The position numbers and the translations under genes are program-made. This document shows positions 1,730-45,012 of a DNA stretch of 46,097 nucleotides, in pieces. This DNA is from Gammaproteobacteria bacterium (GTDB taxonomy: Bacteria > Pseudomonadota > Gammaproteobacteria > SZUA-152): contig DRKN01000177.1 in assembly GCA_011051755.1 (NCBI GenBank), forward strand, positions 1 to 46,097, written 5' to 3'. The notes beneath the pieces were generated by a model that saw nothing but the letters and a program-made list of their open reading frames with translations, was not told the DNA's origin and searched no databases. Within the stretch, counting starts at the first letter, position 1. Each line of letters opens with the position of its first letter.

Positions 1730-1745
1730 TGGTGCCCAGGGCCGG
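1730..1745. repeat. attL: 16-bp copy of the tRNA-Leu 3' end
   Basis: TGGTGCCCAGGGCCGG here is identical to 44926-44941, the 3' end (with CCA) of the tRNA-Leu gene on the other side. The identity stops at both edges of the 16 bp. The integrase lies beside the other copy. This defines the prophage as about 1730-44941, and implies that before integration the tRNA gene stood about 100 bp from mlaE. Confidence 0.9.
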
Positions 1746-2531: not shown

Positions 2532-2547
2532 AATGCCCCCCCTGGAG

Positions 2548-3065: not shown

Positions 3066-3074
3066 GATGTAAAT

Positions 3075-3094: not shown

Positions 3095-3103
3095 TTCTCG
3101 TGA

Positions 3104-7300: not shown

Positions 7301-7302
7301 GG

Positions 7303-20980: not shown

Positions 20981-22460
20981 TGCCTTGTTCCTGTTTGGTG
21001 TTTGCTCCGGCCTTTCCGAACGACAGCCCAACGCCGGCCTCTTGCGCTTTTTTGCGCCAGTTGGCCTCCTGCTTGAGGGTTTCGCTGGGATTGCCGCCAC
21101 GGCGCCGGATGATTTCCGGGCCTGAGATGTAGCCTGCCGCTTCCAGGGTGGTGAATGCGTCCGCTTCTTTTTTGGGGTCTATCCACGGCATGGCAGGCGT
21201 CACGAACATGGCGTCATCCAGCGTTTCCCAGTCGATGTCATCCGGAATGTCCAGCAGGCCGGCCGCATGAGCGGCGGCGACGAAATGACGCCAGACCGGC
21301 TGAACGAACCCGCTGATAAAATCCGACGAGAGCACGGCGTAATTGACCCATTGCTCAACCATCTCCTGGCGTTGCGCGGAATAGGTGCCGTTGTAGTCTT
21401 TCGACATGGACGAGTAAGAAACACCGACACCCGCCGACGCTGCCCGTATTTGGCCGGTTCTGAAACTCTCCACGTTGGGGTTTGGCCGGTTGGTGTCGAT
21501 GGTTTCGATGGATTCGCCCGGCAGCAGGTCATCGAAAATCATGCCGGGCCTGAACTTCATGTTACGCGGAACGGTATTGCCGTTCTCGTCGAACACGGGC
21601 TTGTATTCGTCCGGCGAACCCTTCTTGATGACTGCCGCCATGCTGGCGGCCACCTTGGCGGCAATGCGCTCGGACTCCTCGTAGTCCTTGATGTCATCGA
21701 GCCGGGTCATGATGCTGGCGAATTCGGACACGCCACGCAGCTGCCCGAGGCGATCCACCAGCGCCAGGCGCAGCATGCGGCTCGCGGGCACGGACTTCAG
21801 GTCCTGCCGGCGAACGAAAACCCCGCTGTCGCCCGGGTGCTGCTTGAATACCCAGTAGTTGACCGGCCTGCCCCAGGCGTTGACCTCGATTCCGTTTCGG
21901 ATGCGCTTGCCCGTATCGCTGTAATCCATGGGCAGGTAATCGGATTCCAGCAGTTCGAGCGACAACGGCACGCGGGTGCCATGGTTGAGCTTTCGCACAG
22001 GCCCGGCCAGCACCTGGGACAGCACTTCCCCGTCACGGTACCATGACAGCGCCACCATGCGCTGTGCCCGCGCCCAGCTCATCTGGCCCGTGACTTCCGG
22101 CAGGAGACTCCAGTCGCGGTACAAATCGAGCAGCTGCTTGGCCAGGGGCTCGATAATTTCTCCGTCTCTGTTGAGCGGCTGCGGCTCTACGCCGATACCG
22201 TTGGGCCCAACCGTGTTGTTGACCAGAATACGCAGGGCGCCGCGCGCCACATCGTGATTGCGGTGCAGGTAGCGCGCATAGTTTCTCAGTTGCACGGCAC
22301 TGCGTTCCGCCAGTGTCGTTCCAGAGCTTGAGTCATTGCGGTTTTTTCTGAGGCGGCCAGGCTTGGCCGCATCGTATTGGGCCAGGAGCGCGTAATATTG
22401 CCGCCGGCGAAACGCCCAGCGCGGAGAAATGGCGGCGATGGCGCGGTCCACGATGCTCAC
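20961..22460 (-). CDS. portal protein, lambda gpB family
   Basis: 499 residues. The dodecameric ring at the unique capsid vertex through which DNA is pumped. Family signatures: LRNYARYLHRNHDVARGALR, NNTVGPNGIGVEPQP, a central GVSEFASIMTRLDDIKDYEE, and GVGVSYSSMSKDYNGTYSAQ. Full length. Overlaps the gpW-like gene by 4 bp. Confidence 0.96.
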   Translation of the reverse strand: MSIVDRAIAAISPRWAFRRRQYYALLAQYDAAKPGRLRKNRNDSSSGTTLAERSAVQLRNYARYLHRNHDVARGALRILVNNTVGPNGIGVEPQPLNRDGEIIEPLAKQLLDLYRDWSLLPEVTGQMSWARAQRMVALSWYRDGEVLSQVLAGPVRKLNHGTRVPLSLELLESDYLPMDYSDTGKRIRNGIEVNAWGRPVNYWVFKQHPGDSGVFVRRQDLKSVPASRMLRLALVDRLGQLRGVSEFASIMTRLDDIKDYEESERIAAKVAASMAAVIKKGSPDEYKPVFDENGNTVPRNMKFRPGMIFDDLLPGESIETIDTNRPNPNVESFRTGQIRAASAGVGVSYSSMSKDYNGTYSAQRQEMVEQWVNYAVLSSDFISGFVQPVWRHFVAAAHAAGLLDIPDDIDWETLDDAMFVTPAMPWIDPKKEADAFTTLEAAGYISGPEIIRRRGGNPSETLKQEANWRKKAQEAGVGLSFGKAGANTKQEQGNDNQTA

Positions 22461-22657
22461 TCCGTGAAATCCGCCAGTTGGTGCCGGATACTCCCGGATT
22501 GAGAAGAGGACCGCAATGCGAGAATGATGCGGCGCTCCGCCTGCATCAGCTCTTCCATGCTGCGGTATGTGACCAGCTTTCCATTCACGCGGACGGTCAG
22601 CTCGCCGTTGGCGATGGCCGCCTGAATGTTGTCAAGGTCTGTCTGGGTAAATGCCAT
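22457..22657 (-). CDS. gpW-like head-tail connector
   Basis: 66 residues: MAFTQTDLDNIQAAIANGEL, TVRVNGKLVTYRSMEELMQA. The pattern 'L..I..AIA.GEL.V..NGK.V.YRS..EL' defines the gpW family, which completes the portal vertex. Sits just before the portal gene as in lambda. Confidence 0.9.
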   Translation of the reverse strand: MAFTQTDLDNIQAAIANGELTVRVNGKLVTYRSMEELMQAERRIILALRSSSQSGSIRHQLADFTE

Positions 22658-22704
22658 GCTGGAAGTTATACATGGCGATTTGTGACATTTTTACCGAAAA
22701 CGTG

Positions 22705-23001
22705 TCACTTTTTTTCCTGGCACAGGATCCGCCTGACCTGGCGTTCTGTGATGCCGTATTTTTTGGCCAGTTCAGCGTGGTTCGCCCCGTTGAACGATTC
22801 TCGAATGTCGCGGTTTCGAACATGGGTTTTGAGCTTTTTCGATGACGGGATGTACACCTCAGACGCCCCGTATTCCTCGCACAGACACTGCAGAATGTCG
22901 TCCGCAATGGGAACGGCAAGATGCTCATGCATGCCGGTTGCCGTTCTGACAGCCCGCACCAGCCGGGCTTTGAGATTTACAACAGCATCGGTTTCGCTCA
23001 T
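22705..23001 (-). CDS. Mor-family transcription activator
   Basis: 98 residues from ATG 23001 (ATGA overlap with terL). The central part PIADDILQCLCEEYGASEVY IPSS and the C-terminal HAELAKKYGITERQVRRIL helix-turn-helix match the Mor/C family of Mu, activators of middle and late promoters that bind dyads near -40 to -50. Mu Mor is 129 residues; this one is somewhat shorter but complete in the key parts. Finding it between terL and gpW, with no Mu transposase anywhere, is unusual. Possible targets: the 2492-2531 palindrome promoter. Confidence 0.85.
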   Translation of the reverse strand: MSETDAVVNLKARLVRAVRTATGMHEHLAVPIADDILQCLCEEYGASEVYIPSSKKLKTHVRNRDIRESFNGANHAELAKKYGITERQVRRILCQEKK

Positions 23002-24848
23002 AGCGCCCAATCCTCCGATCCGAATCCAGAATCCTGTGACGGGTTGCTTACCGCCACCGGTTTTTGCGCCGATGTTTTCTTGCTTTTGCGCTGCCTCTCC
23101 AGCAGGGTGAAATCAGGGTTCCCAAGCCGCAGCGCCGCCAGGGAGTAAACCTTGCAGTCCAGCGCTTCGTTCCGCGCCCGGGTCTGCACCCACTCCTGGA
23201 ACGGTCGCCCGCCGCGCACCTTTGTGACCAGTTTCTCCGCCGCCAGCTGGGCGAAATACTCGTCGTCAAAAGCGGGGGTCCGCGAGAAATGGATGTACTG
23301 CGGGCCGGGTTCGATGATTTTCAGCCGCGCATAGAGCAGCGCCTTTCCCTGATCCACACCCAACGGCTCCACCGGGTTGCCTTTTTTGCGCCGCCGGCGC
23401 AGGCGCTGACGGCGGCGGCGTTCGTCCTCCACCAGCGGCCGCCCCATGCCGGTAACACCCTTCACCGGGATGGCCCAGCTCCGGTTTTCGCAGAATGAAT
23501 ACACCATGGAGGTGTTGTAGCCTGAGTCGATGCAGGCCAGATTGATGTGGTATTCACTCAGCTCATCTTCCAGGGCGTCCCACACGTCCTGCAGGGCGGT
23601 ATCGCCTGGAATGATGAGGTGGTCGATGGTCCAGTTTTCCTCTCCATGCGACCAGCCGTCGATGGTGACCTCCAGGCGGTCTTTCTGTACGTCAACCCCG
23701 GCGGTGACATAGAGCCAGGGGGCATTGTCTCCGTAGTCCTCAAGGCGCGTTATCAGCGCCATGTCATCGATGGTTTCGCCCTGCTCTTCCCAGGTTTCGC
23801 CAAGCGTGGTGTTAATGAAGCGCTTGAGGCTGGCGGTATCGCCCTGGGAGGCTTCCCATTGCTGCCATATTTCCCGCCAAGTGAAGCCCAGGCCAATGGG
23901 TGAGTACAGGCCATTGAGGTGGTAGCCGCGCACCTTGCGCTCTGGATGCCTGGCGATCCAGCGCCCCTTGGCAAGCATTTCAGGCTTGTGGTGCTCGTCG
24001 ATGCGGGCGCCGCATTCGCGGCAGGCGTAGAACACATCTCCCGTGGCCTTGACGTGTATCAGCCCGTAGCTGCCATCCGCATGCTTCCAGCGCAATACCT
24101 GGTATTCGCCACAATGGGGACAGGGCACATGGTATTCGCGCATGTCCGACTGGTTGTATTCCAGTTCGATGCGCGAGCCACCCTTGACCGTTGGCGTGGA
24201 AACCATGAGCAGCTTGCGCCGCGGGAATGCCTTGGTGCGCTCATCGATGAGGCCTATGGGGTCGCCTTCTTCACCCACTTCCCATGGAAACCGGTCAACC
24301 TCATCCAGCAGCACGTTTCGAATCGGCATGGAGGCCAGTGAGGCCGGGCTGTTCGCGCCGGAGATGACCATGAAGCCGCCCGGAAATTCCTTGATGTCTT
24401 CGGAATTGGCGGCGTCGCGGCTGGCGTAGGCATCGATGATTTCGGACAGGACCGGGGTTTCGCGCAGCAGGGGGTTGAGCCGCTGGCGCACCCAGCGCTT
24501 GCGCACCTCCAGCGTGGGCAGCACCACCAAAGTGGGCGCGGGGGCGTGTTCGGTGATGTAGCCTAGCCAATTCAGGCCCGCTTCGGTTTTCCCGATTTGG
24601 CTGGAAAACATCATCACCACCCGCTGCACCGGGCTGGTGACAGACAGGCAATCCATGATTTCCCGCAGGTATGGCGTGCGGGATGTCTTCCACCGGCCCG
24701 GCTCAGAGCTGCCCTTGCTGGAGAGGATGCGGTACTGGTCTGCCCAGTCAGACACCCTGGTGACAGGGCGCGGCCTGACGGATTGGGCCAGGCGCTGGTA
24801 CATCCAACCGATATCAGATTGCACAAATTCCATGTCAAAGCCAGCCAT
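22998..24848 (-). CDS. terminase large subunit, GpA family
   Basis: 616 residues from ATG 24848 (or ATG 24833). Motor and nuclease that cuts and packages phage DNA. The N-terminal half is the ATPase: SSQIGKTEAGLNWLG (Walker A variant) and NVLLDEVDRF (Walker B). The C-terminal half is the nuclease: VTAGVDVQKDRLEVTIDGW and NLACIDSGYNTSMVYSF. Family markers near the start are VSDWADQYRILSSKGSSEPG and YLREIMDCLS. A zinc-finger-like CPHCGEYQ and CRECGARID pair is present. Its start overlaps the end of the cysH-like gene by 14 bp, so it is translated behind the CRISPR-like genes. Confidence 0.96.
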   Translation of the reverse strand: MAGFDMEFVQSDIGWMYQRLAQSVRPRPVTRVSDWADQYRILSSKGSSEPGRWKTSRTPYLREIMDCLSVTSPVQRVVMMFSSQIGKTEAGLNWLGYITEHAPAPTLVVLPTLEVRKRWVRQRLNPLLRETPVLSEIIDAYASRDAANSEDIKEFPGGFMVISGANSPASLASMPIRNVLLDEVDRFPWEVGEEGDPIGLIDERTKAFPRRKLLMVSTPTVKGGSRIELEYNQSDMREYHVPCPHCGEYQVLRWKHADGSYGLIHVKATGDVFYACRECGARIDEHHKPEMLAKGRWIARHPERKVRGYHLNGLYSPIGLGFTWREIWQQWEASQGDTASLKRFINTTLGETWEEQGETIDDMALITRLEDYGDNAPWLYVTAGVDVQKDRLEVTIDGWSHGEENWTIDHLIIPGDTALQDVWDALEDELSEYHINLACIDSGYNTSMVYSFCENRSWAIPVKGVTGMGRPLVEDERRRRQRLRRRRKKGNPVEPLGVDQGKALLYARLKIIEPGPQYIHFSRTPAFDDEYFAQLAAEKLVTKVRGGRPFQEWVQTRARNEALDCKVYSLAALRLGNPDFTLLERQRKSKKTSAQKPVAVSNPSQDSGFGSEDWAL

Positions 24849-25560
24849 TGTGTTTCGCCAACCGCCAGGCATCTGGGTAGTGCTCGCGCAGGTACTCGAT
24901 GCGCCCGTGCTCCTCGCCTGAGCGACCAATGATGCCGTTGCGAGCCTGCGGGCCCATGCGGTCGTAGATGTCGAGCCAGGGCAGGCCACGGGTGACGATG
25001 TAGGCCCATACATCCCTGGTGGTCCATTTGGCGATGGGCAGATAGGCGCCGCCGCCGTCGGCGTAGTCGTAGGCCTGTCCGCGTTTGGCGATGAGCATGC
25101 GGCGGGGGCCGCTCTCCTCTGCGCGCAGGCCCATGACACGGTGGGTCAGGCCGTGGCGGTTGGCATAGTCGTAGATGGCGCAGAACATCTCATGGTGAAT
25201 GCCGCGCTGATAGGCCTCCACGCTGGCCTGGGTGCGGTCACCGCCCCACTTGTCCCACTCGAAGCGGTGGAAGTTCCAGCCTGCCCGGTCGATCCAGTTG
25301 AGCCACTTCTGCCTGTCGTCCTCGGTCCAGTGCGTTGGCACGCCAGGGTCGATCATGAGGATGGGGATGCCTGGGTGGATGCGGTGACAGAAGTCGGCGA
25401 TCACGGCGCTGTCCTTGCCGGCGGAGAATCCGACGTAGGTGCGGGCCGGGTCGATGGTCTCGATCAGGCGCTGGGTGTCGCGCAGTTTGCGCTGGTAGCC
25501 GGCGGTGGTGGCGTGGGCATGGAACCCGGCCAGTACGACGGGGCTCAGGCGAGTGGCCAT
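24835..25560 (-). CDS. CysH-like protein of a type IV-B CRISPR-type locus
   Basis: 241 residues, PAPS-reductase/ATP-pyrophosphatase superfamily. The PP-loop is SAGKDSAV (Ser46, Lys49, Asp50, Ser51); further markers are HRVMGLRAEESGPRRM and PIAKWTTRDVWAYIVTRGLP. CysH itself reduces PAPS in sulphate assimilation, but a related protein is the standard companion of type IV-B CRISPR loci, where its task is unknown. Here it follows csf1-cas11-csf2-csf3-cas6, overlapping cas6 by 16 bp, and precedes terL. A role in nucleotide or nucleic-acid modification is possible. The alternative, a DndC-like DNA sulphuration enzyme, is less likely since dnd partners are missing. Confidence 0.9.
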   Translation of the reverse strand: MATRLSPVVLAGFHAHATTAGYQRKLRDTQRLIETIDPARTYVGFSAGKDSAVIADFCHRIHPGIPILMIDPGVPTHWTEDDRQKWLNWIDRAGWNFHRFEWDKWGGDRTQASVEAYQRGIHHEMFCAIYDYANRHGLTHRVMGLRAEESGPRRMLIAKRGQAYDYADGGGAYLPIAKWTTRDVWAYIVTRGLPWLDIYDRMGPQARNGIIGRSGEEHGRIEYLREHYPDAWRLAKHNGWL

Positions 25561-26069
25561 GGCATGATCTCCGGCAGGTAGATGAGCCCGGCACCGAATG
25601 CTTTGTTGCGGCCGATGCCGAACTGCAGCAGGGTGGCGAAGCGGGCGCGGTCGTGGATTTCGATCACGCCGGTGGTCTGCACCAGCAGGCGGCGCATGCC
25701 GCTCTTCAGCCTGATCCAGTCGTCCTCGAACCGCACGAAGCGCAGGCTAGCGGCGTCGCCGAGCTGTCGCTTGAGCCAGTCGCGGCGCCCGAACCGGTCG
25801 GTGATGTCTTCCTTGCCGCTTTTGTAGCGGCGGCTGCTCTTCTGGATGACCAGGTCGGCGGCGAACGACAGTGGGCGGCCGGTCTCGATTCCGTCCAGCG
25901 TCAATGGCTTGGCGGGGTGGTGCGGCTTGATGACCGACAGCACCAGATAGTCCTCTGGGCTCATGCGGCGGAAAAGGAACTGCCGCTGCTCGCTGTCGAA
26001 CAGCTTGTGCAGGTGCTGGTGCACCTCATAGTCACTCACCCGCGGCAATTTGACGTGGCTCAGAAACAC
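25545..26069 (-). CDS. cas6: Cas6e-like CRISPR RNA endonuclease
   Basis: 174 residues from GTG 26069, which begins inside the last codons of csf3 (10-bp overlap). The N-terminus MFLSHVKLPRVSDYEVHQHL, then FLFRR, aligns by eye with E. coli Cas6e (MYLSKVIIA and LYQLHQGLWHLF); His17 falls on the catalytic His20 position. The C-terminus GIGRNKAFGAGLIYLPE matches the Cas6e glycine-rich loop GIGPGKAFGCGLL. Cas6 cuts precursor CRISPR RNA at repeats. Type IV-B loci typically lack any Cas6, so its presence beside cysH is notable. No array is in the window, so its substrate may be host-made repeats. Confidence 0.87.
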   Translation of the reverse strand: MFLSHVKLPRVSDYEVHQHLHKLFDSEQRQFLFRRMSPEDYLVLSVIKPHHPAKPLTLDGIETGRPLSFAADLVIQKSSRRYKSGKEDITDRFGRRDWLKRQLGDAASLRFVRFEDDWIRLKSGMRRLLVQTTGVIEIHDRARFATLLQFGIGRNKAFGAGLIYLPEIMPWPLA

Positions 26070-26698
26070 GGCAGGCCCTCCACGCAGTCCTCCCACCAGG
26101 GCGAGTACCAGTAGGGCGGCACCCAGGGGCGCAGCGGCTTGGCCTGTCCCTCGATGAGGCCGGCGCGGGCTGGCACGTTGCGTCGTGCGGCGATCCATTC
26201 CGGCTCCAGGTCCGCCTCCTCTGCGCGCCAGTCATGCACCGCGCCGTAGCCTGCGGCGCCGTTGGGGCCGATGGCGCGCACGTCGTTGAGCAGCATCAGG
26301 ATGTCATCCGGGTCGGCTCCGTCGCCCAAGATCAGGCCGGCCTGCCATTCGCGTGCTGACAGGGTGCGGATGGGCCGGCGGCGCTCCTTGAACTGGCCGG
26401 CGGCGGTGTTGATTTTCATCCGCTTGCCGAGGTTGGCGCGGTCGGCGGGATAGCGCTTATGCAGGTACTCGCGCCCCTCCAGCGGCTCGCCGACGGGGTA
26501 GATGTCGGTGCCGGCCCAGAGTGGTTTGCCATCCTCGTCGCGCCAGATGGCGTGCAGTGGCACGGGCACCACCACGGGGCCGTCCTGCAGCGAGGGCAGG
26601 TCCTGGTGGCCAGCGCTGGCCCAGGCGATGAGTGACGCGATGTTAATGCGCGCGCCGGTGCTGACCACAGGTGTGGTGACTGTAGCGGTGACGATCAT
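26060..26698 (-). CDS. csf3: Csf3, type IV Cas5-like subunit
   Basis: 212 residues from ATG 26698 (ATGA overlap with csf2). Holds the 5' handle of the guide RNA in type IV effector complexes. Recognised by GKRMKINTAAGQFKE, RRRPIRTLSAREWQAGL, and the Gly-rich loop AIGPNGAAGYGAV (about 142-154), all characteristic of Csf3. Length is normal for the family. It is the third subunit in the order csf1-cas11-csf2-csf3. Confidence 0.92.
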   Translation of the reverse strand: MIVTATVTTPVVSTGARINIASLIAWASAGHQDLPSLQDGPVVVPVPLHAIWRDEDGKPLWAGTDIYPVGEPLEGREYLHKRYPADRANLGKRMKINTAAGQFKERRRPIRTLSAREWQAGLILGDGADPDDILMLLNDVRAIGPNGAAGYGAVHDWRAEEADLEPEWIAARRNVPARAGLIEGQAKPLRPWVPPYWYSPWWEDCVEGLPCF

Positions 26699-27546
26699 GC
26701 CGCGCACAGCACCTTCTCCGTGCCGAGCGTGCCGTTGGTCAGGCCCTCGCGCATGGCTTCGTAGTGCGCATCGATATGGTCTTCATAGGCCTCCGATAAA
26801 TCGACAATCGTGCAGTCCATACGGACAATCTCAACGCGGCCTCTGCCTTGCCGTGCCTGGCCACCGATGTAACGGTCCCAGTTCTCAAGGGCGACGCCGA
26901 TGCAGCCTCGTGTAGATTCTGGGGTGAGATTGTCAAACGTCAGTTCGATATGGATCTTCGCCCCGGCGGCCAGCGTCTCGTAGGTGTAGAGCATTTGGTT
27001 GCCGTCGGAGTCGGTGCCGGTGCCGCGGGTGCGCGTCTCTTCCTCAAGGAGATCAAACGCACTCACGCTGCGGGCCTCGTCCTCCAGGTGCGGGGCCACC
27101 AGCGCCAGGGTATCGGCGTACTCGCGGGCCACCAGCCAGGCGGCCAGGCGCAGGCGCGAGCGCGGCAAGATGAAGCCGTCCACGGCGCCGCCGAGCAGGT
27201 CCAGGCTGGGGTAGAGCAGGCGGATCTTGTGGCCCAGCTCGATGTCGTTGGTGGGCGCTTTGGCGCCGGCCTTCATCTGGCCGCCGGAGTAGAGCAGGTT
27301 GACGACGCTCTGCGGCATGTCGCCTGGGTGCAGGTCGAGCTCATCCACCAGATGGTCGGCCAGTGGGATGCGAAACAGGGTGGCGCGCAAGGCGTTCTCG
27401 CTAATCGCAGGCACACGCGCCGGGATGCCGTTGACCAGCATGGCCTGCCGCATGAACAGCCGGGTGTTGGTCTGGTTGTCGATGCCAGTCACGGTGTCGC
27501 CGTGGGCTATGGGAGTCATGGTTTGCAAGGTGATGGCGTATTTCAC
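26695..27546 (-). CDS. csf2: Csf2, type IV Cas7-like backbone subunit
   Basis: 283 residues from GTG 27546, which overlaps the stop of the cas11-like gene (GTGA). Cas7 subunits polymerise along the guide RNA. Features: MKYAITLQTMTPIAHGDTVT, NTRLFMRQAMLVNGIPARVP, NALRATLFRIPLADHL, DLLGGAVDGFILPRSRLRLA, and the late GCIGVALENWDRYIGGQARQG RGRVEI pattern of Gly-rich Cas7 proteins. Somewhat shorter than plasmid Csf2 (about 330). A longer upstream reading frame is the overlap with the gene before and not used. Confidence 0.9.
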   Translation of the reverse strand: MKYAITLQTMTPIAHGDTVTGIDNQTNTRLFMRQAMLVNGIPARVPAISENALRATLFRIPLADHLVDELDLHPGDMPQSVVNLLYSGGQMKAGAKAPTNDIELGHKIRLLYPSLDLLGGAVDGFILPRSRLRLAAWLVAREYADTLALVAPHLEDEARSVSAFDLLEEETRTRGTGTDSDGNQMLYTYETLAAGAKIHIELTFDNLTPESTRGCIGVALENWDRYIGGQARQGRGRVEIVRMDCTIVDLSEAYEDHIDAHYEAMREGLTNGTLGTEKVLCAA

Positions 27547-27959
27547 AGGATACCCTCCAGTGTGTCGTCGAAATCGGTGGTGTCTGTGGCCGTCTCGGCG
27601 CGCTTGGGCTTCTGCGCGCTGTGCAGCATGCGGGCGATGGTGACGATGCTCACCGCATCGGTGGCCAGGGTGCGCAGCACCTGCGGCTGGTCGTCGGCCT
27701 GGAACAGCTCGGCGATGCGGCTGTCGTACTGGCGCGGCGGCACAGGCCAGCGCATCTTGCGCAGCAGTGCGGCCCAGAACTCCGGGATATTGCGCGCCTG
27801 CACGGCGCACAGTTCCACGCGCCCGGCCAACACCTGGTAGCGGGTCATGCCGGTGAACAGGCCGGTGCCGTCCACCGAGTTAAAACAGTCCAAGCTGAGC
27901 TGGATCAGCCTCACCGCGGTCTGCTGGGGTGGTGTCAGTGTGTCGAGCAGGTTTTGCAT
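27543..27959 (-). CDS. Cas11-like small subunit
   Basis: 138 residues from ATG 27959; a GTG two codons upstream (27965) is closer to the GAGGAG ribosome binding site and also possible. Mostly helical: LTPPQQTAVRLIQLSLDCFN, RNIPEFWAALLRKMRWPVPP, VLRTLATDAVSIVTIARMLH. Not similar to a family by motif, but size, helical nature and position between csf1 and csf2 are those of the small subunit reported for type IV-B loci. Overlaps csf1 by 80 bp in another frame and csf2 by 4 bp. Confidence 0.8.
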   Translation of the reverse strand: MQNLLDTLTPPQQTAVRLIQLSLDCFNSVDGTGLFTGMTRYQVLAGRVELCAVQARNIPEFWAALLRKMRWPVPPRQYDSRIAELFQADDQPQVLRTLATDAVSIVTIARMLHSAQKPKRAETATDTTDFDDTLEGIL

Positions 27960-28683
27960 GAGCACGTTTCTCCTCTTTGGTAACGCCGGCAATGAGCAGG
28001 GCCGGCAGGAATTCGGGGCGGTTGCGGAGCCTGGCCAGGGTCGATTCCAGGCGCAGGGTTTCCGCCGGGTCGCGGCTGGCGCGCTTGTAGTCGTTGAACA
28101 GCGAGTGATAAGCGGCGCTCTTGGCGTAGCCGGCGCGCAGGATGGGTAATAGCTCGTCAATGGCGCGCAGTAGGTCCACCAGGTCGAAATGCCGCCACTC
28201 GCTCACGTCGTAGTCCGGCGCGTGCACGTAGAGCCCGAAATCGCCAATGGTCGCGATCTGGCAGCGGTGCCAAAGACGGATTTTCACGTCTGTGGTGAGA
28301 ACGCCGGTGATAGGTGTCTCCGGTGGCAGTTGTGGCAGATCGCGGACGATATGCAGCCATGGGCGCTTGTCCTGCACCACGGACTCAACAGAGATCACCG
28401 CCAGCTCAAAGCCCGTCGGCTCACTGGCGATGAAATTGCCGGGCCGTCCCTTGCCGATCTCCATTAGCCAGGCGCAGGGGATGCAGAAGTGCGTCGCCTG
28501 TCGGAACCTGAACAGTTGCGAGTCGCCCACGGTGGTGCTCTTGATGATGCGTTTCGCCGGCACGGCCTCACCATCGATCTCGGTGCCGCAGATCATGCAG
28601 CGGCCGGAAGCAGTCTCTGTCTGGTGCTTTTGCCCAGGCAACCCCGCGGACTGCCAAATCATGGCTTGAGCCGCGACCGTCAT
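27880..28683 (-). CDS. csf1: Csf1, type IV large-subunit (Cas8-like) protein with zinc finger
   Basis: 267 residues. Signature protein of type IV CRISPR systems. A four-cysteine zinc site, C29-M-I-C32 and C67-I-P-C70, with HFCIPCAWLMEIGKGRPGN around the second pair, is typical of Csf1. C-terminal basic tail (EEKRAHAKPARHTDTTP). Start ATG 28683 overlaps the terS stop (ATGA), so the whole set is translationally coupled to a packaging gene and would be expressed late in the lytic cycle unless there is an internal promoter, which I do not see. Confidence 0.9.
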   Translation of the reverse strand: MTVAAQAMIWQSAGLPGQKHQTETASGRCMICGTEIDGEAVPAKRIIKSTTVGDSQLFRFRQATHFCIPCAWLMEIGKGRPGNFIASEPTGFELAVISVESVVQDKRPWLHIVRDLPQLPPETPITGVLTTDVKIRLWHRCQIATIGDFGLYVHAPDYDVSEWRHFDLVDLLRAIDELLPILRAGYAKSAAYHSLFNDYKRASRDPAETLRLESTLARLRNRPEFLPALLIAGVTKEEKRAHAKPARHTDTTPADRGEADPAQLGLF

Positions 28684-29267
28684 TGGCCACCCCCCAATTT
28701 GGCCCGCTTTCGAGCCATGTGCGCGCTCATTTCCTCCAGCATGTCGCGGGCGGTCTGTTCCAGGCTGGCGTGTATGGACACGGTATCACCGCCATGCCCG
28801 GCCAGCTCTCCAGCCAGACGGTCAGCCATGCCTTCGAGGAGCTGGCGAAGCGTGGCGCCGAAGTCGGAGAGGACAAAGTCCACGTCCTCGCGGCGCACCA
28901 GCTCCCCGGCCTTGCGCGCCTGTTCCATTTCGGCCATGGCCGCCTTGGCTTCTCGCTCGCGGGTCATGGCCAGCTTGAGGCGCAGAGCGACGTCTGCGGC
29001 GTCTGCTGGCGGCTGCTCTTCGGCGTCCTTGGGTTGTTCGGCCTGCTGCCGCCGCTTGGCCTTCTTCTCCGCCTCTATCTGCGCCTTTCGCGCCTGGTGG
29101 TGCGGCGCGGCGGATTCGGTCAGTTCAAGTTGCTGCTTGGCAGCGTCGGGGTCGAGCCGCTTGTCTGCGCCCAGGGTGATGCGCCCGTTGAGCACCCAGC
29201 GGCGCACGGTGGAACGGTTGACGTTCATCATGCGGGCGAATTCGGCCTGGGTGATGCGGCGGGTCAT
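28680..29267 (-). CDS. terminase small subunit (Nu1-like)
   Basis: 195 residues from ATG 29267 (ATGA with the deaminase gene). Binds the packaging start site of phage DNA. N-terminal winged helix-turn-helix RRITQAEFARMMNVNRSTVR RWV; then a Glu/Lys/Ala-rich helical region (KAQIEAEKKAKRRQQAEQPK; KLAMTREREAKAAMAEMEQA) for oligomerisation. Normally terL follows terS directly; here 3.8 kb of CRISPR-like genes separate them. Confidence 0.9.
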   Translation of the reverse strand: MTRRITQAEFARMMNVNRSTVRRWVLNGRITLGADKRLDPDAAKQQLELTESAAPHHQARKAQIEAEKKAKRRQQAEQPKDAEEQPPADAADVALRLKLAMTREREAKAAMAEMEQARKAGELVRREDVDFVLSDFGATLRQLLEGMADRLAGELAGHGGDTVSIHASLEQTARDMLEEMSAHMARKRAKLGGGQ

Positions 29268-29773
29268 AGGTCCTGCTGCCCCCATCGTTCAGCCCAGTGC
29301 GCTTGAATTTCTTCTAGCGAATTCTTCCGACGGCTCTGTTGATGTTCCTCTGCAACAACACTGATTCCCGCCTCTTTCATCAACCCCACTGCTATCTCGT
29401 TTTCCTCTCTCCAGTGTTCTCTGCCGTTTGCAGGCCCTACAACACGCCTGATGCCGGCCTGGATGAGCTTTGATGCACACCTTGCACACGGTAGCAGCGG
29501 CCAGACATAGGCCGTGCATCCTGATACAGAGCGGTTGGCAAACAGCAGGGCGTTTTCTTCGGCATGAATTACCATCCGCAGCTTGGTTTCGCGGTCATTC
29601 AACCGCTCGCTGTTATCTGAGACACCATGCGGCAAGCCGTTGAACCCGACAGATACGACCCGATGCTTGTCATCAACGATTACTGCTCCGACTTTCGTTG
29701 ACGGGTCTTTTGACCAACTTGCAATAAGCTTTGCCATGGCCATGAAGCGGCAATCCCATTTGCTGATGCTCAT
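29264..29773 (-). CDS. deoxycytidylate (dCMP) deaminase
   Basis: 169 residues from ATG 29773. Converts dCMP to dUMP for thymidylate supply. Zinc-site motifs H70-A-E72 (VIHAEENALLFANR) and P95-C96-A-R-C99; DPSTKVGAVIVDDKHRVVSV GFNGLP is the family's N-terminal pattern. Pairs with the dNMP kinase at 33647. Start chosen at the ATG that overlaps the preceding stop. Confidence 0.92.
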   Translation of the reverse strand: MSISKWDCRFMAMAKLIASWSKDPSTKVGAVIVDDKHRVVSVGFNGLPHGVSDNSERLNDRETKLRMVIHAEENALLFANRSVSGCTAYVWPLLPCARCASKLIQAGIRRVVGPANGREHWREENEIAVGLMKEAGISVVAEEHQQSRRKNSLEEIQAHWAERWGQQDL

Positions 29774-29967
29774 TTGTCGAACATCTCCCAACTCCAATAC
29801 AGCGGCCAAAATATTGCAGCGGTAATACCAGTAACTGACCTGCATTCCTGCTCAAAAGACCAAACTTTTGTCGTGCAATCTGCACGAGATGCGGCGTATC
29901 CGAACGTAATCACAAACACCAAGATGTAAAAAATTCCGGCAATCTGAACAGCCCTCAATCTACACAT
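29770..29967 (-). CDS. small two-helix membrane protein
   Basis: 65 residues from ATG 29967 with ribosome binding site GGAGGGG. Two hydrophobic segments: AVQIAGIFYILVFVITFGYA and ITAAIFWPLYWSWEMF, with two Cys between them. Overlaps the zinc-ribbon gene upstream by 8 bp. Unknown; phage inner-membrane peptide. Confidence 0.7.
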   Translation of the reverse strand: MCRLRAVQIAGIFYILVFVITFGYAASRADCTTKVWSFEQECRSVTGITAAIFWPLYWSWEMFDK

Positions 29968-30232
29968 CAATTTCCCCTCCAATACGATCCTGAGCGGCAT
30001 CGCTCATCTGCCAATACAACTGTCTGAGAAGTGCGACCTGCCGCTGATATTCGTGCGCCAATGTCTCCCCGACCAGCTCCGATAAATCCATGGTCAGGCA
30101 GTTTGAACACAGCTCACCGCCTCTTGACTGGGTGCCACAGCGCGGACAGGCTGAGTTTGTCGTTACGGCGCTCCACGGATACTGCCAGTGGAGCTTGCTG
30201 ATAATTTCGTCCAACACCTGTTGGCTACTCAT
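29960..30232 (-). CDS. small zinc-ribbon protein
   Basis: 90 residues. CPRCGTQSRGGELCSNC at 29-45 is a four-cysteine zinc ribbon; the rest is helical (ETLAHEYQRQVALLRQLYWQ). ATGA overlap with the gene upstream. Common type of phage replication-region gene, function unknown. Confidence 0.78.
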   Translation of the reverse strand: MSSQQVLDEIISKLHWQYPWSAVTTNSACPRCGTQSRGGELCSNCLTMDLSELVGETLAHEYQRQVALLRQLYWQMSDAAQDRIGGEIDV

Positions 30233-30480
30233 GCCGCCACCCCCTGTAAATGCTCCAGGCAGGCTCGCCTTGCCTCACTGGCGCTGCAGAACCGTCCCAG
30301 GCAGTGGTACGGCTGCGGGGTTGATTCTCCGAGCGCGTAGCGCGCCTTGTGTTGCTCGCGGCGGTAATTTGGGTTTGGGGCATAGGCCAGATAATCGGCC
30401 GTTTGCCGGGTAAACAGCTTGGCAACGCGGTACCCCGTGTCAGATTCCAGGCAATAAGGGGTGATTTGTCTCCATTCCAT
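30229..30480 (-). CDS. unknown small phage protein
   Basis: 83 residues: MEWRQITPYCLESDTGYRVA KLF, YLAYAPNPNYRREQHKARYA, LGRFCSASEARRACLEHLQG. 'Y.I....GYRVAK' recalls small replication-region proteins of phages. First gene after the putative origin, coupled by ATGA to the zinc-ribbon gene. Confidence 0.75.
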   Translation of the reverse strand: MEWRQITPYCLESDTGYRVAKLFTRQTADYLAYAPNPNYRREQHKARYALGESTPQPYHCLGRFCSASEARRACLEHLQGVAA

Positions 30481-30496
30481 GCGTTTTTACCTGTCG

Positions 30497-30785
30497 GCCT
30501 ACAAAACAAACGCAAAAGCCCCACTTGTGGCCTACATTTCAGCGCTTGTAACTCTTTGTTTTTTCTGAAAACGCCTACATTGCCTACATAACCTACATTA
30601 TTTATTACTGTAAAATTGCTGAAAAAAATATGATGTTGGCCTTTCCTGTAAACACACACGCGCGCGCACGCGTAAGGCGTATATGTAGGCTTTGTAGGCT
30701 TTTTTAAGGTTTTCATTCGTTTGCGTCGTTTATCCTGTAGGCTTTTGCTGTGGCCTTTGTAGGCTTTTGGCGTAGTTTTGTAGGC
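30497..30785. repeat. iteron cluster, candidate phage replication origin
   Basis: The 313 bp between the primase gene and the next gene hold no gene. GCCTACA occurs at 30497, 30530, 30573 and 30582, with ACCTACA at 30591; its reverse complement TGTAGGC occurs at 30684, 30693, 30736, 30758 and 30779. The two sets face each other across an AT-rich centre (30598-30680) that ends with an alternating CGCG stretch. Mirror-arranged iterons around an AT-rich core beside a primase-helicase gene are what one expects of a P4-like origin bound by the helicase. Confidence 0.75.
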
Positions 30786-30793
30786 CTCCATCA

Positions 30794-33247
30794 TCAGAAC
30801 CCGCCATCTTGAGTGCCGTTCACAGCATTGTTGAACGCCACCCAACAGGCCATGAGCCATGTTTTCTGGCTGTCATGCGCCGATTCCATGAGGTTTTCCT
30901 GGATACCGGCATGGTCATGTTTCAGCGCGTCGTTCATGTCCACCTGGCTGGGGAAGATGAAGCGCCGGCGCACTTCGCCGGATTTCGTCCAGTCGCTCCA
31001 TATTCGAATACCGTTCGGCGGCGCCCGCCAGCCTGGGATGCGCTTGAGGTAGTCGGTAAATCGCGTTCGCCCTGGGGCCCGCACGCCGTTGCGCTCACAC
31101 CATTTTCTGAATTGCTGGTAGATGAGGTCTGGCGGCACAGGGCAGAACGGCAGCGGTGTGCCGTCTGGCGTGAGTACATCGAGACTCTTCCATTCGGCGT
31201 AGAAATGCTCTTCCGGCGATTTGCCAAGCTCTACCAGATCACGCTTGGCATTGGTCATCGGAGGATGCGTCCATGGCCTGAAATCGCCCAAATCGAGGTC
31301 CAGCAGATATTGATGCAGGGCCTCGATGCCGCCATTGTTGATTTCCTCGGTCACCTCCTCGTAGAACGCCGGCGGCAATTTCGGCGGCGACCAGATGACG
31401 CAGTGCCGCCGGTCATCCTCTTCCAGAGCGACAGGTTGCCGCTCATTGGAGAGGAACACGATGTTCATGCAGTTGCGTTCATTGTGGGCCGCGACGTTTT
31501 TCGGATTGACGCGGATGGTTTTGCCGGTGATGAACGATTTGAGACGGTTTTTGACGTGGTACATGTCTGCCCTGGCCAATACCTCATCGGCCAGGATGAA
31601 CAGCTTTTTTTCCGCCCAGTCGGCGTTGAATTTATCCTCCAGCGCTTCCTGACCTAGAACCCGGCCGTATTCGCCGTATATCTCGACGATGGCCTCAAAA
31701 AAACGAGATTTGCCCGTTCCCTGCGGACCATGAATGACCAGCGCACTGTGCATTTTCGCGCCCGGGTTCTGGATCGGGTAGGCAATCCACTTGAGAATCC
31801 ACTGATAGACCTCTTCTGCGTTTTTTTCCTTGCTACAAAGCCACTCCAGCGTCTCCAGCAGCAGATCACACTTCCCAGGCTTTGGCGTGGTGGGCCACCC
31901 GCCCCACATGTTGCAGCGCAAATGCGTATCTTCTCCGGTGGGGTCAAACCCCACTTCGGTGTCCCTGGCAACACGCCAGTCCGGGTGTTCACGCATTTTG
32001 TCTATGCCGTGGCGCTCCATGATGTTGGCCACGTCTTTTTTGTGAATGAGGCGGCGTTCAACTTCATCAAACAGCAGGTCACCACCAAACCCGTAGGTGC
32101 CCCAGTACCGCCGCACCCCCTCTTCTACCGTGATGTGGGAGGGGATGGCTTCTCTTCCCCCGCCCCCTGTTTCGGCGGGCGCCCCGCCTGACCCCTGCGC
32201 AAGCTTTCCGTCCCATTTCAGGTAGGCCAGGCGGGCGTCCACCTGGGCGCGGACGGCCTGCAGCCCTTCGGCCAGGTACAAATCGTTGAAATCGGTGTGC
32301 TTCTTGTATTTGCGCTCGACACTGAACTCTGGTTTCATCCACTGCCCGTCAACCGCCAGGGCCGCGGCCTTCGCAGATTCAATGCCGGCATTCTTCTGCC
32401 GGTGCGGCTCGCCGCAGTGGACGCATAAATCCTCTTCGATGGGCGTCACTTTTTCGCACGCCCGGCATTTCTGCAGATGGTCATCGTCCGCACAGATCAG
32501 GATCCGGGCCCGTGGGTACCGCCCACGGATGGCAACGGAAACTGGAACAAGATTGTTCGCGTCGAATGCCACCACAACGGGCAGCCCGGTGGCCTCATGC
32601 AGGGTTGCGCCTGTAGCATAGCCCTCGACAACAAGCACCAGATCACGAATCGCGCCGATCTGGAAAAAATGCCCGCGCTTGGTCAGCCCCTTTGGCCAGT
32701 ATTCCTTGTTCCGGCCTGTTTTTTTACGCCTGGGGTGTTCCTTCGGCAGAATGAACTGCAGGCCATGGATGTTACCCTGCACATCCAGCATGGGGATCAC
32801 CACCGCCCCGGATTCGGTGAAGCGCAGGCCATGCGCCTGCACACCCTTTTCCGCCAGGTAATCCGCCTCGCCAGTGGGCAGCGCCTTATGCCAGGTGGCG
32901 GTCGCCCTGGCAGCCGCCTTAGCTGCTTCACGCTCACGCCTGGCCTTGGCCTTGAGCCTGTCAGCCTTCAGCCTGGCGCGCAGTGCCTCTTGCTGATCGG
33001 CATCCAGGGCATTGCGAGGCATCCTGATTTTCTGCGCATTCTGATCGTTCCCACGCCAGATGCCATAGCTTCCAACAAGCAGCGGCTGGTGGTTGCGGTC
33101 TGTCACCTGGTGCAGGTAATACCACCCCCGGCGCTCACGCCTGTCATCCTCTGTGTAGGTACGAACAAACCTGCCCGTTTCAAGGCCACCCTCAATAACC
33201 AGCCCATAGCCGGTCATCTGCTTAATAACGCTATCGTAGTTATTCAT
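30794..33247 (-). CDS. P4-alpha-like primase-helicase
   Basis: 817 residues from ATG 33247. Replication initiation protein. Residues about 130-300 hold a Toprim-type primase (LVLVVEGYATGATLHEATGL, ARILICADDD) with a four-cysteine zinc site CRACEKVT and CVHCGEPH inserted in it. Residues 480-620 are a superfamily 3 helicase: GPQGTGKS (507-514) and LFILADEVL, then NVAAHNERNCMNIVFLSNER. The C-terminal 120 residues form a winged-helix DNA-binding tail. Likely binds the TGTAGGC iterons just downstream of its gene. Confidence 0.93.
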   Translation of the reverse strand: MNNYDSVIKQMTGYGLVIEGGLETGRFVRTYTEDDRRERRGWYYLHQVTDRNHQPLLVGSYGIWRGNDQNAQKIRMPRNALDADQQEALRARLKADRLKAKARREREAAKAAARATATWHKALPTGEADYLAEKGVQAHGLRFTESGAVVIPMLDVQGNIHGLQFILPKEHPRRKKTGRNKEYWPKGLTKRGHFFQIGAIRDLVLVVEGYATGATLHEATGLPVVVAFDANNLVPVSVAIRGRYPRARILICADDDHLQKCRACEKVTPIEEDLCVHCGEPHRQKNAGIESAKAAALAVDGQWMKPEFSVERKYKKHTDFNDLYLAEGLQAVRAQVDARLAYLKWDGKLAQGSGGAPAETGGGGREAIPSHITVEEGVRRYWGTYGFGGDLLFDEVERRLIHKKDVANIMERHGIDKMREHPDWRVARDTEVGFDPTGEDTHLRCNMWGGWPTTPKPGKCDLLLETLEWLCSKEKNAEEVYQWILKWIAYPIQNPGAKMHSALVIHGPQGTGKSRFFEAIVEIYGEYGRVLGQEALEDKFNADWAEKKLFILADEVLARADMYHVKNRLKSFITGKTIRVNPKNVAAHNERNCMNIVFLSNERQPVALEEDDRRHCVIWSPPKLPPAFYEEVTEEINNGGIEALHQYLLDLDLGDFRPWTHPPMTNAKRDLVELGKSPEEHFYAEWKSLDVLTPDGTPLPFCPVPPDLIYQQFRKWCERNGVRAPGRTRFTDYLKRIPGWRAPPNGIRIWSDWTKSGEVRRRFIFPSQVDMNDALKHDHAGIQENLMESAHDSQKTWLMACWVAFNNAVNGTQDGGF

Positions 33248-37484: not shown

Positions 37485-37516
37485 TATCCCAACAGCGGAA
37501 TCACCCCGGAACGGAG

Positions 37517-37600
37517 ATGAAAGTCACAAGCCACAGAACAGACTGCGTAATCCTTTTCACCGCCTACGTGCTGGCTGTGATCGTCGCTGTTTTTCGATAA
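37517..37600 (+). CDS. 27-residue hydrophobic peptide
   Basis: MKVTSHRTDCVILFTAYVLA, then VIVAVFR. First reading frame after the early promoter; the ATG directly follows AACGGAG. One transmembrane helix. Could be a leader peptide or a small early membrane peptide. Confidence 0.5.
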   Translation: MKVTSHRTDCVILFTAYVLAVIVAVFR

Positions 37601-37622
37601 CCCACGGCCAACGGAGAAACCA

Positions 37623-37955
37623 ATGACCGACATCAACACCACACTGAACGACCTCGACGCAGGCATCTTCATGCAGAAGATTGACAAAGCCCTGCGCGAC
37701 ACCGCCCTGGGCGTCGTCACCCAGGGGCGCATCGGCAAGGTCATCATCGAGCTGAAACTGGAACAAATCGGCGAATCCAACCAGGTCAACATGACCCACA
37801 AGCTCAAATACGACAAACCCACCGCCCGCGGAAAGCTGGTCGAGGAGGACGCCACCGAAACGCCGTTGTACGTCTGCCGTGGCGGCGCCCTGTCACTCAT
37901 GCCTGACACCCAGGGCAAATTCGAATTCAACACCCAGAAACAGGAGACTGAATAA
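37623..37955 (+). CDS. early phage protein, recombination region
   Basis: 110 residues from ATG 37623 with ribosome binding site GGAGAAACCA. MTDINTTLNDLDAGIFMQKI, KALRDTALGVVTQGRIGKVI, then beta strands (LKLEQIGESNQVNMTHKL). Such proteins always accompany DUF2303 proteins in phages. Stop and next start overlap (TAATG). Unknown. Confidence 0.82.
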   Translation: MTDINTTLNDLDAGIFMQKIDKALRDTALGVVTQGRIGKVIIELKLEQIGESNQVNMTHKLKYDKPTARGKLVEEDATETPLYVCRGGALSLMPDTQGKFEFNTQKQETE

Positions 37956-38758: not shown

Positions 38759-38780
38759 TAGCGAACCGGAGGACACAGAC

Positions 38781-39131
38781 ATGGCAAAGACGCCCCCCCT
38801 GCACAAACGCCTGGCCAGGCTGTATCTGCCATTCGATGGCACCATCCGGGCAGAAATTGGCAGGGACACTCGATCCTGCGAATTACACCGCGCCGCCGAG
38901 CTGGAAGAACGCAATCGCCAGCGCCGCATAGCCTGGGCGCGAAGGGTGTATGAGTCCACCGGACGCACGCCTAGCATTCACCCGGCAGGCCCCTGGTTCA
39001 TCGATGGCCTGCTGGCGAAGCGCCATCGGTTGCGCACCGAACAGCACGGCAATACAGCCATCGTTCCATTCCCGCGCCGCAAGCGGCAGTACATGCACAC
39101 ACGGCTGCCGGAACCGCCAGAGGCGGCCTGA
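38781..39131 (+). CDS. basic early phage protein, unknown
   Basis: 116 residues from ATG 38781 with ribosome binding site GGAGG. Arg-rich: [56 protein letters not shown]. May bind nucleic acid. Stop TGA overlaps the next ATG (TGATG). Confidence 0.75.
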
Positions 39132-43506: not shown

Positions 43507-43754
43507 TGACCGAAATCGAACAACTACTGAAACTCATACAGCCGCAGATCCCGATCACCGTTGATCTGTGGTCTGTCCGTGAAATCGCGGCCTATCTCAA
43601 ACGAAACCCCAACAACGTGCGGGACCGGGTAACGAAACTACCAGGCTTCCCCACCCCGATCCGCCTGCCAACAGAATCAGGCAAGCGAGGACAGCCATTG
43701 TGGAAAGCCAAGGAAGTGATCGCCTGGGCGGAAAAACACCGTGACGCCGCCTAA
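43506..43754 (+). CDS. putative excisionase/AlpA-like DNA-binding protein
   Basis: 82 residues: LWSVREIAAYLKRNPNNVRD RVTKLPGF, PIRLPTESGKRGQPLWKAKE VIAWAE. Winged helix-turn-helix of the AlpA/MerR-Xis type: 'W....IA.YL......V...V...GFP.P', 'W...EV..W'. It ends 4 bp into the convergent integrase gene. Most likely directs excision. Confidence 0.8.
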   Translation: MTEIEQLLKLIQPQIPITVDLWSVREIAAYLKRNPNNVRDRVTKLPGFPTPIRLPTESGKRGQPLWKAKEVIAWAEKHRDAA

Positions 43755-44737
43755 TCCAGTCGATCCGCAAGCTCATCGATGGTCGGGTTGTAATACACCT
43801 GGCTGAGGATCTTCAGATCACGAATCCCCAGCATTCGCGCCAGCTCCATCACCCCGAGCTTTTTCGACAACCGCGTGGCCGCCTCATGACGCGAATCATG
43901 AAAGTGCAAATCAACGATCCCCGCCCGGTCCCGCATCTTGCGGAACAACGCATCAATACTCTGCCTCGTCAACCCGAACACATCCGGCGGATCCGTCGCC
44001 TCCATCACATGATCCAACAACGCCCGGGCCCTGGAAGATAGCGGCACATCCCGTGCGGAGCCATTTTTCGTCATCGGCAAATGCACATGCCGCTCATGCA
44101 CATCACAACGCCGCAGCCCGGCGATCTCCCCGCACCGCATCCCCGTCTCGATGGCAAACAAGAACGCGGCAATGACCCGCTGCTGCCGTTCAACCGGCGG
44201 CACATCATCCGAATACCCGGACGCGATCCGCAACGCTTCGATTTCATCCTCTGCCGGCCGCCTGTGCCGCGGCGGTGACGCCTTCGGACGCGACACCAGG
44301 GACACTGGCGACTCACGCAACCAGCCCCACTCCCGCGCCGCCACGCGGCACGCATGAGACAAGATGTTCATCTCCCGGCATACCGTTGATCCGCTGACCT
44401 CGCGCAACCGCGCATCCCGCCAGGCGGCGATATGCCGCGGCGCCAGCTCACGCAGAGACAAATCAGCCAGCGCCTTGTTACCCAGGAACCGGTTGATGAA
44501 CTTCTGTTCACGCGCCGCGCCTCGCTTGGTTGGCGTCACCTCCATCGAATACCGGCGCAACAGATCACCGAACGTCTTGTTCGGTATCTTCCCGGCAATG
44601 GCATCCTCCAGCTCGATTTCAGTTTCACGCGCCCAGGCAACGGCAGCCGCCTTGGTGGCAAACGTCTTTGACTTCCGTCTGCCGCCCACCTTGACCTGAA
44701 CCTGCCAACGATCCCCTCGCTTGCGAATACTCGCCAT
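43751..44737 (-). CDS. int: tyrosine-recombinase phage integrase
   Basis: 328 residues. N-terminal arm-binding SIRKRGDRWQVQVKVGGRRK SKTF, core-binding 60-150, catalytic domain with Arg201 (ETGMRCGEIAGL), Lys224, H280-D-S-R283-H284 and a nucleophile Tyr in QVYYNPT (315 or 316). It faces attR, less than 200 bp away. It lacks the extra patch expected of integron integrases, so it is a phage enzyme and not the one that builds cassette arrays. Confidence 0.95.
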   Translation of the reverse strand: MASIRKRGDRWQVQVKVGGRRKSKTFATKAAAVAWARETEIELEDAIAGKIPNKTFGDLLRRYSMEVTPTKRGAAREQKFINRFLGNKALADLSLRELAPRHIAAWRDARLREVSGSTVCREMNILSHACRVAAREWGWLRESPVSLVSRPKASPPRHRRPAEDEIEALRIASGYSDDVPPVERQQRVIAAFLFAIETGMRCGEIAGLRRCDVHERHVHLPMTKNGSARDVPLSSRARALLDHVMEATDPPDVFGLTRQSIDALFRKMRDRAGIVDLHFHDSRHEAATRLSKKLGVMELARMLGIRDLKILSQVYYNPTIDELADRLD

Positions 44738-44925: not shown

Positions 44926-44941
44926 TGGTGCCCAGGGCCGG
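44926..44941. repeat. attR core (tRNA-Leu 3' end)
   Basis: TGGTGCCCAGGGCCGG, identical to 1730-1745. It lies in the acceptor stem and T arm of the tRNA gene, including the CCA, so integration leaves an intact tRNA gene at this end. Confidence 0.9.
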
Positions 44942-45012
44942 GGTCGAACCGGCACGGTGTTGCCACCGAGGGATTTTAAGTCCCTTGCGTCTACCAATTT
45001 CGCCACCTGGGC
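44926..45012 (-). tRNA. tRNA-Leu (anticodon UAA)
   Basis: 87 nt with encoded CCA. Acceptor GCCCAGG pairs with CCTGGGC; D arm has TTGGTAGACGC; anticodon arm AGGGACT-TAA-AATCCCT; a long variable arm (CTCGGTGGCAACACC) as in class II tRNAs; T arm GTGCCGGTTCGACCCCGGC. The anticodon TAA reads UUA. Target gene of the prophage. Confidence 0.95.

Follow-up and report, generated by a model that had tools for sequence, protein, structure and literature searches.

What is a type IV CRISPR-like operon doing between the two terminase genes of a prophage? The question is raised by a 46,097-nucleotide contig of a gammaproteobacterium of the SZUA-152 lineage (GenBank assembly GCA_011051755.1, contig DRKN01000177.1; this whole stretch is called the window here), in which csf1, cas11, csf2, csf3, cas6e and cysH genes lie on the minus strand at positions 24835–28683, overlapping one another and flanked by terS and terL. 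The answer that we favour, while holding it tentatively, is that these genes form a mobile, phage-borne cassette of subtype IV-B with an added Cas6e ribonuclease, and that their products would assemble into a ribonucleoprotein (RNP) that captures in-trans guide RNAs as a form of counter-defence. What IV-B complexes bind and what they do is stated to be an open question in passages of PMC8175902, PMC7937560 and PMC11656645.

We investigated the identity of the effector genes with profile searches (E values in Table 1). Csf1, Csf2 and Csf3 gave significant matches to PADLOC type IV profiles, which bears out the type IV identity that an earlier reading of the sequence (the original prediction) had taken from signatures in these proteins. 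The Csf1 match is confined to residues 8–79; its four cysteines (C-x2-C ... C-x2-C) are invariant across three phage homologues. The Cas11 match is weak, and the protein is 77% identical to its copy in a sister module described below. Gene position and the presence of homologues elsewhere among the phage modules lend support to the two low scores, those of Csf1 and Cas11. Csf2 and Csf3 stayed under the cut-offs of the NCBIfam equivalog models (29 of 130 bits and 36 of 140 bits, respectively), and Pfam had no match for Csf1, Csf2 or Csf3; the proteins are therefore divergent. When a three-row Csf2 profile was searched against the PDB, the IV-B Csf2 structure 7JHY came first, a Cas7c-named entry second (5e-12), and IV-A Csf2 chains scored 2–3e-4. 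A type III or I-E effector was rejected since the type IV profiles score highest. Homologues of Csf1 (by its N-terminal part), Csf2 and Csf3 lie within one operon, as is required of a type IV locus.

Several of the PADLOC profiles carry the label 'CAS-IV-A', and subtype IV-B was instead assigned from gene content and the 7JHY match. The locus has a Cas11 gene (weak in score, supported by position and conservation), a cysH-like gene, and no array that we could find. No match to the DinG/Csf4 model TIGR03117 passed the cut-off in the host genome, and on this contig there was none whatever. Judged by gene content, the locus is subtype IV-B plus Cas6e. Its closest characterized counterpart is the IV-B Csf complex of Mycobacterium sp. 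JS623 (7JHY; actinobacterial plasmids), with which it shares the order csf1, cas11, csf2, csf3, a cysH-like gene and the lack of a detected array; by analogy with IV-B, Csf2 and Cas11 may form an RNP filament on RNA. It differs from the plasmid IV-B loci in having Cas6e (0 of 12 plasmid records), a phage carrier and a Csf2 on a long separate branch. IV-A systems share Csf1, Csf2 and Csf3, and some use Cas6e according to part of PMC8175902; they lack Cas11 but have an array and DinG, whereas in the window Cas11 and CysH are present, no array was detected and the contig gave no match to DinG. The 'Fuxiviridae' IV-B locus of Bathyarchaeia (PMC10848311) likewise joins the effector set to a CysH-like gene in a virus, but that virus is archaeal and has a two-repeat mini-array, and the text makes no mention of Cas6.

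The gene that sets the locus apart is cas6e. Its product matched the PADLOC profile at 2.6e-14 and TIGR01907 above the curated cut-off, and it has the family match, the glycine-rich C-terminal motif and the CasE-type Tyr/His, the last by a weak alignment: Tyr14 and His17 align with the CasE YxxH, where the N-terminal alignment scores only 1.9 bits. Both residues are retained in the sister module. We take the Tyr/His of CasE (His20) to be catalytic residues, and the predicted activity of the window protein is cleavage of repeat stem-loop RNA. For PF08798 we searched 16 IV-B loci (Skermania phage SPI1, three IMG/VR records and 12 plasmids) in their complete records. Only the sister module was positive, as was a I-E control plasmid, while the Csf3 control was found in 16 of 16. 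The plasmid loci were 10 of the 67 records of one search and three of the five of another, one IV-A locus being left out of this test. No Cas6e was found by tblastn with both Cas6e proteins in six further phage modules (L113 and L116–L120; locus stretch only), and in another, L013, the Cas6e position is occupied by a protein of 127 aa whose helix-turn-helix match falls below the cut-off. Sections of PMC8175902 and PMC7937560 describe IV-B as having neither an array nor a processing enzyme; by the second of these marks the in-operon Cas6e makes the locus a IV-B-like variant with Cas6e rather than a plain member. PMC11656645, in part, likewise describes IV-B as lacking an array, and a portion of the 2025 classification (PMC12669027) has most IV-B loci without arrays and also notes a chimeric, RecD-containing type IV variant. 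In the literature that we searched, which covers the likeliest sources incompletely, we found no description of IV-B with Cas6e.

Are the six genes a unit? All six recur, in unchanged order, in IMG/VR record IMGVR_UViG_3300026534_000004 (L005). A comparison of window positions 22001–31000 with L005 gave a sole blastn match at E 1e-3, running from about codon 8 of csf1 to the end of cysH. We found no relative of the window TerL in L005, which is possibly a fragment. There, the module lies on the minus strand among genes for a RecE-like exonuclease, RecT and a methyltransferase, close to an integrase gene, and the portal and tape measure genes are on the plus strand, opposite to the module. In both phages the csf1 start sits on the stop codon of the preceding gene. 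The ratio of non-synonymous to synonymous substitution rates between the two copies was 0.17 for csf1, 0.19 for cas11, 0.12 for csf2, 0.22 for csf3, 0.35 for cas6e and 0.25 for cysH; all six genes are constrained, Cas6e least. Collectively, the six genes recur as a single block with sharp borders in two different phages and evolve under purifying selection, which shows them to be a discrete cassette. We also noted by eye, at about 9238–9275 of L005, right behind cysH, a TTGACA followed 17 bases on by TACTAT, which resembles a strong promoter for the next gene.

The arrangement in the window is tight. Gene order, coordinates and overlaps of 4–80 bp among the six genes came out as first noted, and so did the place between terS and terL, both of which overlap cassette genes. 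The overlaps are 4 bp for terS/csf1 (ATGA), 80 bp for csf1/cas11, 4 bp for cas11/csf2, 4 or 13 bp for csf2/csf3 (with ATG 26698 or GTG 26707, respectively), 10 bp for csf3/cas6e, 16 bp for cas6e/cysH and 14 bp for cysH/terL. Neither promoter-like sites (6, against 3.2 ± 1.9 in shuffles) nor terminator-like sites (12, against 10.4 ± 2.8) were clearly in excess. The G+C content of the module is 65%, compared to 58% over the entire window. The window is one of 207 contigs (C177) in an assembly that is 90.3% complete, a setting in which a chimeric contig might arise. Nevertheless, genes overlap at both borders, an independent record holds the same six genes, and all frames are open and constrained, so an assembly artefact is extremely improbable.

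Further searches showed that such modules recur in phages. The original prediction had type IV loci known mainly from plasmids; phages carry them as well, and we found ten further phage-borne modules, nine in IMG/VR records (L005, L013, L014, L113 and L116–L120) and one in SPI1, for a total of 11 with the window. That type IV occurs in phages and prophages is already reported in parts of PMC11656645 and PMC10848311. Some of the modules are partial, among them L118, which ends in csf3, and L113, which begins just before csf2, with no cas11 seen. In a Csf2 tree, the window, L005, L013, L113 and L116–L120 form one clade (support 100/99), within which L117 and L119 are close together; SPI1, L014 and ten plasmid sequences fall outside it. 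This nine-module phage clade makes IV-B a recurrent phage cargo and not a plasmid trait alone. In SPI1 (KR011061.1 32609–36242; L003 6063–9696), orf40–44, annotated as hypothetical, are a five-gene IV-B module that shares csf1-cas11-csf2-csf3-cysH with the window; it differs in having no Cas6e and a Csf2 that groups with actinobacterial plasmids.

Among 50,697 phage records, window Csf2, window Csf3 and L013 Csf2 had no match, window CysH matched SPI1 only, and a SPI1 Csf2 query matched SPI1 alone. Scans of genome contigs and IMG/VR with window Csf2 as a single protein also gave no relative; profile scans of IMG/VR later found Csf2 relatives, so these negatives carry little weight. A Csf1 profile found nothing in the genome contigs, and Csf2 occurred in the host genome only (1 of 96 among relatives, 1 of 369 in the class). 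The AlphaFold2 model of Csf1 (predicted local distance difference test (pLDDT) 58) was too poor for a structure search. Two of the modules have features of their own. L014 (IMGVR_UViG_3300043431_000358), at 6073–9319, is rearranged to csf2-csf1-cysH-csf3, and its Csf2 has about 120 additional N-terminal residues, by eye a suspected Cas11 fusion. In L113 (IMGVR_UViG_3300028556_000014), at 327–3415 and 8115–9865, a phage-type module of csf2, csf3, cysH and csf1, together with an integrase gene, is separated by about 5 kb from type I-G genes (Cas7g and the start of Cas5-6g). This record is either a prophage next to an I-G locus of its host or a phage that itself carries I-G genes.

Next, we considered the position between terS and terL. 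The original prediction had read it as a sign of a late-expressed system tied to DNA packaging, and the overlaps with terS and terL do make co-translation with packaging genes likely. In L117, too, the module follows terL and portal closely (~1.4 kb behind them), so a late location is not unique to the window. By contrast, the sister module sits in a recombination cluster near an integrase, and the virion genes of that phage occupy the opposite strand. Several more modules lie beside RecE/RecT, replication or integrase genes: L118 and L119 behind RecE/RecT, L116 and L120 near replication initiation genes, and L113 by an integrase. L013 is near a primase gene, and the L014 stretch includes a major head gene. 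We then compared the interval in 82 loci with a TerL relative (80 from IMG/VR and two genomes). Cassette-protein relatives were present in 0 of 82 (tblastn, 1e-3), and hence the cassette does not consist of generic packaging genes. terS was detectable in 42 of these loci, and in the other 40 the interval was not seen whole. As weaker terS matches left the gaps unsure, counts were made by hand on the 25 loci with a terS E value below 1e-30, some of them near-copies (L017/L018; L034/L035/L040).

The gap was within 100 bp in 14 of the 25 loci and over 300 bp in 11. We looked at the cargo in ten of the 11 open loci and in L020, omitting L018, whose gap equals that of L017. Pfam identified N6/N4 methyltransferases in L017, L029 and L032, a C5 methyltransferase in L048, Bro-N in L029, a dUTPase in L037, DUF3310 in L024 and L031 and a sub-cut-off HNH match in L021; the intervals of L020, L043 and L049 held nothing convincing. 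With the interval closed in 14 of 25 and filled with unrelated cargo in others, the terS–terL position is simply a permissive cargo slot, in which other phages hold DNA methyltransferases and nucleotide enzymes. A late-expressed system tied to packaging is thus very unlikely. The intervals of L017, L024, L029, L031, L032, L037 and L048 are a place to seek more counter-defence genes.

Where would the guide RNAs come from? Rfam, repeat and k-mer scans found no CRISPR array or mini-array in the window, though one diverged repeat could escape them. Neither the host repeats nor the E. coli I-E repeat matched the window or L011/L012 better than three shuffles of each. Among the other phage stretches, direct repeats of at least 20 bases at 48–100 spacing occurred only in SPI1 (L003 1393 and 15686) and L011; the latter, at 6935–7060, were rejected as an array because they lie within the gene of a 225-aa repeat protein (6703–7380). 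As no array was found, the guide RNAs are probably taken from elsewhere. Two loci of the host assembly combine Cas1 with arrays, whose 36-nt repeats (14 in one, 11 in the other) fold into 7-bp hairpins. The locus on contig C130 is type I-G by profile, and a Cas8g match is also present on C165. These two (L008, L009) are closely similar type I-G loci with slightly different repeats, and may be two loci or mixed strains. Of the seven genomes of the genus, the host's own among them, five have Cas8g; the 33 other genomes searched have none. Excluding the prophage copy, members of the Cas6e family are present in 3 of 6 congeners and in 9 of 39 relatives, counts that do not imply membership in full I-E systems.

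Guide capture would then work as follows. Csf2 and Cas11 would polymerize along a small RNA whose end carries Csf3 and Csf1; Cas6e would cut and hold an in-trans stem-loop RNA, most plausibly host precursor CRISPR RNA (pre-crRNA) or crRNA; guides would be withdrawn or mis-cut, blunting CRISPR immunity against the phage; and CysH may act on the complex or on nucleic acid held in it. The type IV and Cas6e profile matches, the CasE-type Tyr/His, the constrained cassette, the lack of a detected array, the I-G arrays of the host, the Cas8g and Cas6e-family genes of its congeners and the methyltransferases in the same slot support this reading. Part of PMC10910872 offers a printed precedent, in which phage Cas9 is thought to take host crRNA as biomimicry anti-CRISPR. 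The proposed logic is shared, but Cas9 is Class 2 and its proteins are unrelated, and capture by the window module is only inferred. A section of PMC8175902 had already proposed guide sponging for IV-B. We also consider it possible, with more reserve, that the phage IV-B lineage is a guide-RNA trap in which host pre-crRNA is re-cut and locked in the Csf filament. The whole complex would be the anti-CRISPR, Cas6e would set the usable host repeats, and the cassette would move like other counter-defence cargo. A natural IV-B operon with its own crRNA-type nuclease, together with host arrays, makes the guide source of IV-B testable.

Several results weigh against guide capture. The phage Cas6e is divergent, scoring 43 bits to PF08798 compared to 72–173 bits in nine relatives, and 9 of the 11 phage modules have no detected Cas6e, so that capture by Cas6e is not general to the clade. 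Our searches found no Cas6e gene in the host assembly besides the prophage copy, and hence no cognate I-E array is known in the host. The 23 spacers of the two host arrays matched the window only in chance-length pieces. In the portion of PMC7937560 that bears on this, a purified IV-B complex co-expressed with I-E Cas6 and an array bound mixed RNAs in which crRNA was not enriched. The same text cites a negative co-occurrence between IV-B and other CRISPR systems. Lastly, guide capture leaves CysH unexplained.

The second-ranked explanation, RNA-guided conflict between elements, would put the same enzyme to another use: phage Cas6e would trim in-trans host or plasmid crRNAs, and the complex, loaded with them, would bind and silence rival phages or plasmids in the way that IV-A works with DinG. 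Cas6e would then be a means of guide production, the prophage state would give time to protect the lysogen, and IV-A, in a passage of PMC11656645, counters plasmids and is able to draw on the I-E adaptation of its host. However, no array was found, the cassette has no nuclease or helicase, the contig has no Csf4 match and there is no known target; we consider this explanation rather unlikely.

CysH bears on a further alternative. The protein matched PF01507 above the cut-off. Its PP-loop (SAGKDS) is invariant in four phage CysH proteins, and no cysteine is common to all four, a pattern also given for CasCysH in part of PMC8175902; it seems, from these alignments, to be a PP-loop nucleotide-binding protein without the reductase cysteine. 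A structure model of modest confidence (pLDDT 71) matched the 3'-phosphoadenosine 5'-phosphosulfate (PAPS) domain of FAD synthase, PAPS reductases and GMP synthetases. The CysH proteins of L116, L117 and L119 are more distant (31–33% to the window CysH). A generic phage PAPS reductase was rejected because the gene adjoins the effector genes in 9 of the 11 phage modules; of the other two, one is truncated before it and one has PP-loop genes farther downstream. In L120, CysH is not directly behind csf3: two PP-loop genes with DndC/BrxP-like matches lie downstream of the effector set (10430–13508), with a ParB-like and, by eye, a methyltransferase-like gene between them. The conserved place of CysH, its PP-loop and its lack of a shared cysteine would suit a role outside CRISPR, in which the filament binds phage or host RNAs unselectively, CysH modifies or signals via nucleotides, and Cas6e trims a phage RNA hairpin. 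The IV-B RNP on heterogeneous RNA reported in a section of PMC7937560 is consistent with it. A Cas6e with CasE-type Tyr/His under purifying selection is nevertheless hard to square with random RNA, and we hold this role to be unlikely.

The carrier, judged by its sequence features, is a prophage integrated at a tRNA-Leu gene, since an integrase gene lies beside a tRNA-Leu whose 3' end recurs exactly, over 16 bp, at the far side of the window (Table 1). From this repeat, its limits would be 1730–44941.

Table 1. Cassette genes, their borders and prophage landmarks in the window.
Feature	Position	Strand	Evidence
csf1 (Cas8-like large subunit), 267 aa	27880..28683	-	PADLOC typeIV_Cas8 8.9e-8; C-x2-C ... 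C-x2-C
cas11-like small subunit, 138 aa, start within csf1	27543..27959	-	PADLOC typeIV_Cas11 6.9e-4
csf2 (Cas7 backbone), 283 aa	26695..27546	-	PADLOC typeIV_Cas7 9.5e-35; 7JHY match 1.5e-23
csf3 (Cas5-like), start ATG 26698 or GTG 26707	26060..26698	-	PADLOC typeIV_Cas5 3.6e-24
cas6e-type ribonuclease, 174 aa, GTG start	25545..26069	-	TIGR01907 1.8e-12; PF08798 3.7e-12
cysH-like PP-loop protein, 241 aa	24835..25560	-	PF01507 7.8e-9
terS, upstream border	28680..29285	-	phrog_57 9.3e-23
terL, downstream border, 616 aa	22998..24848	-	TerL matches in phage records
DNA match to sister cassette in L005	24839..28659	-	blastn 76.9% identity, 3,858 columns
Integrase	43751..44737	-	phrog_1 1.1e-54
tRNA-Leu	44926..45012	-	3' end = 16-bp repeat copy 44926–44941, presumed attachment site
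Second 16-bp repeat copy, presumed other attachment site	1730..1745	+	exact repeat of tRNA-Leu 3' end

Other prophage proteins among those scanned are a primase, a dCMP deaminase, TerS, TerL, a portal protein, a head protease and a tape measure protein. Two prophage proteins had no PHROG match (37487–38977, minus strand, 497 aa; 4106–5371, minus strand, 422 aa), and a third (8396–11800, minus strand, 1135 aa) had a weak match only. TerL is matched by 1,220 of the 50,697 phage records by tblastn, 515 of them across at least 80% of its length.

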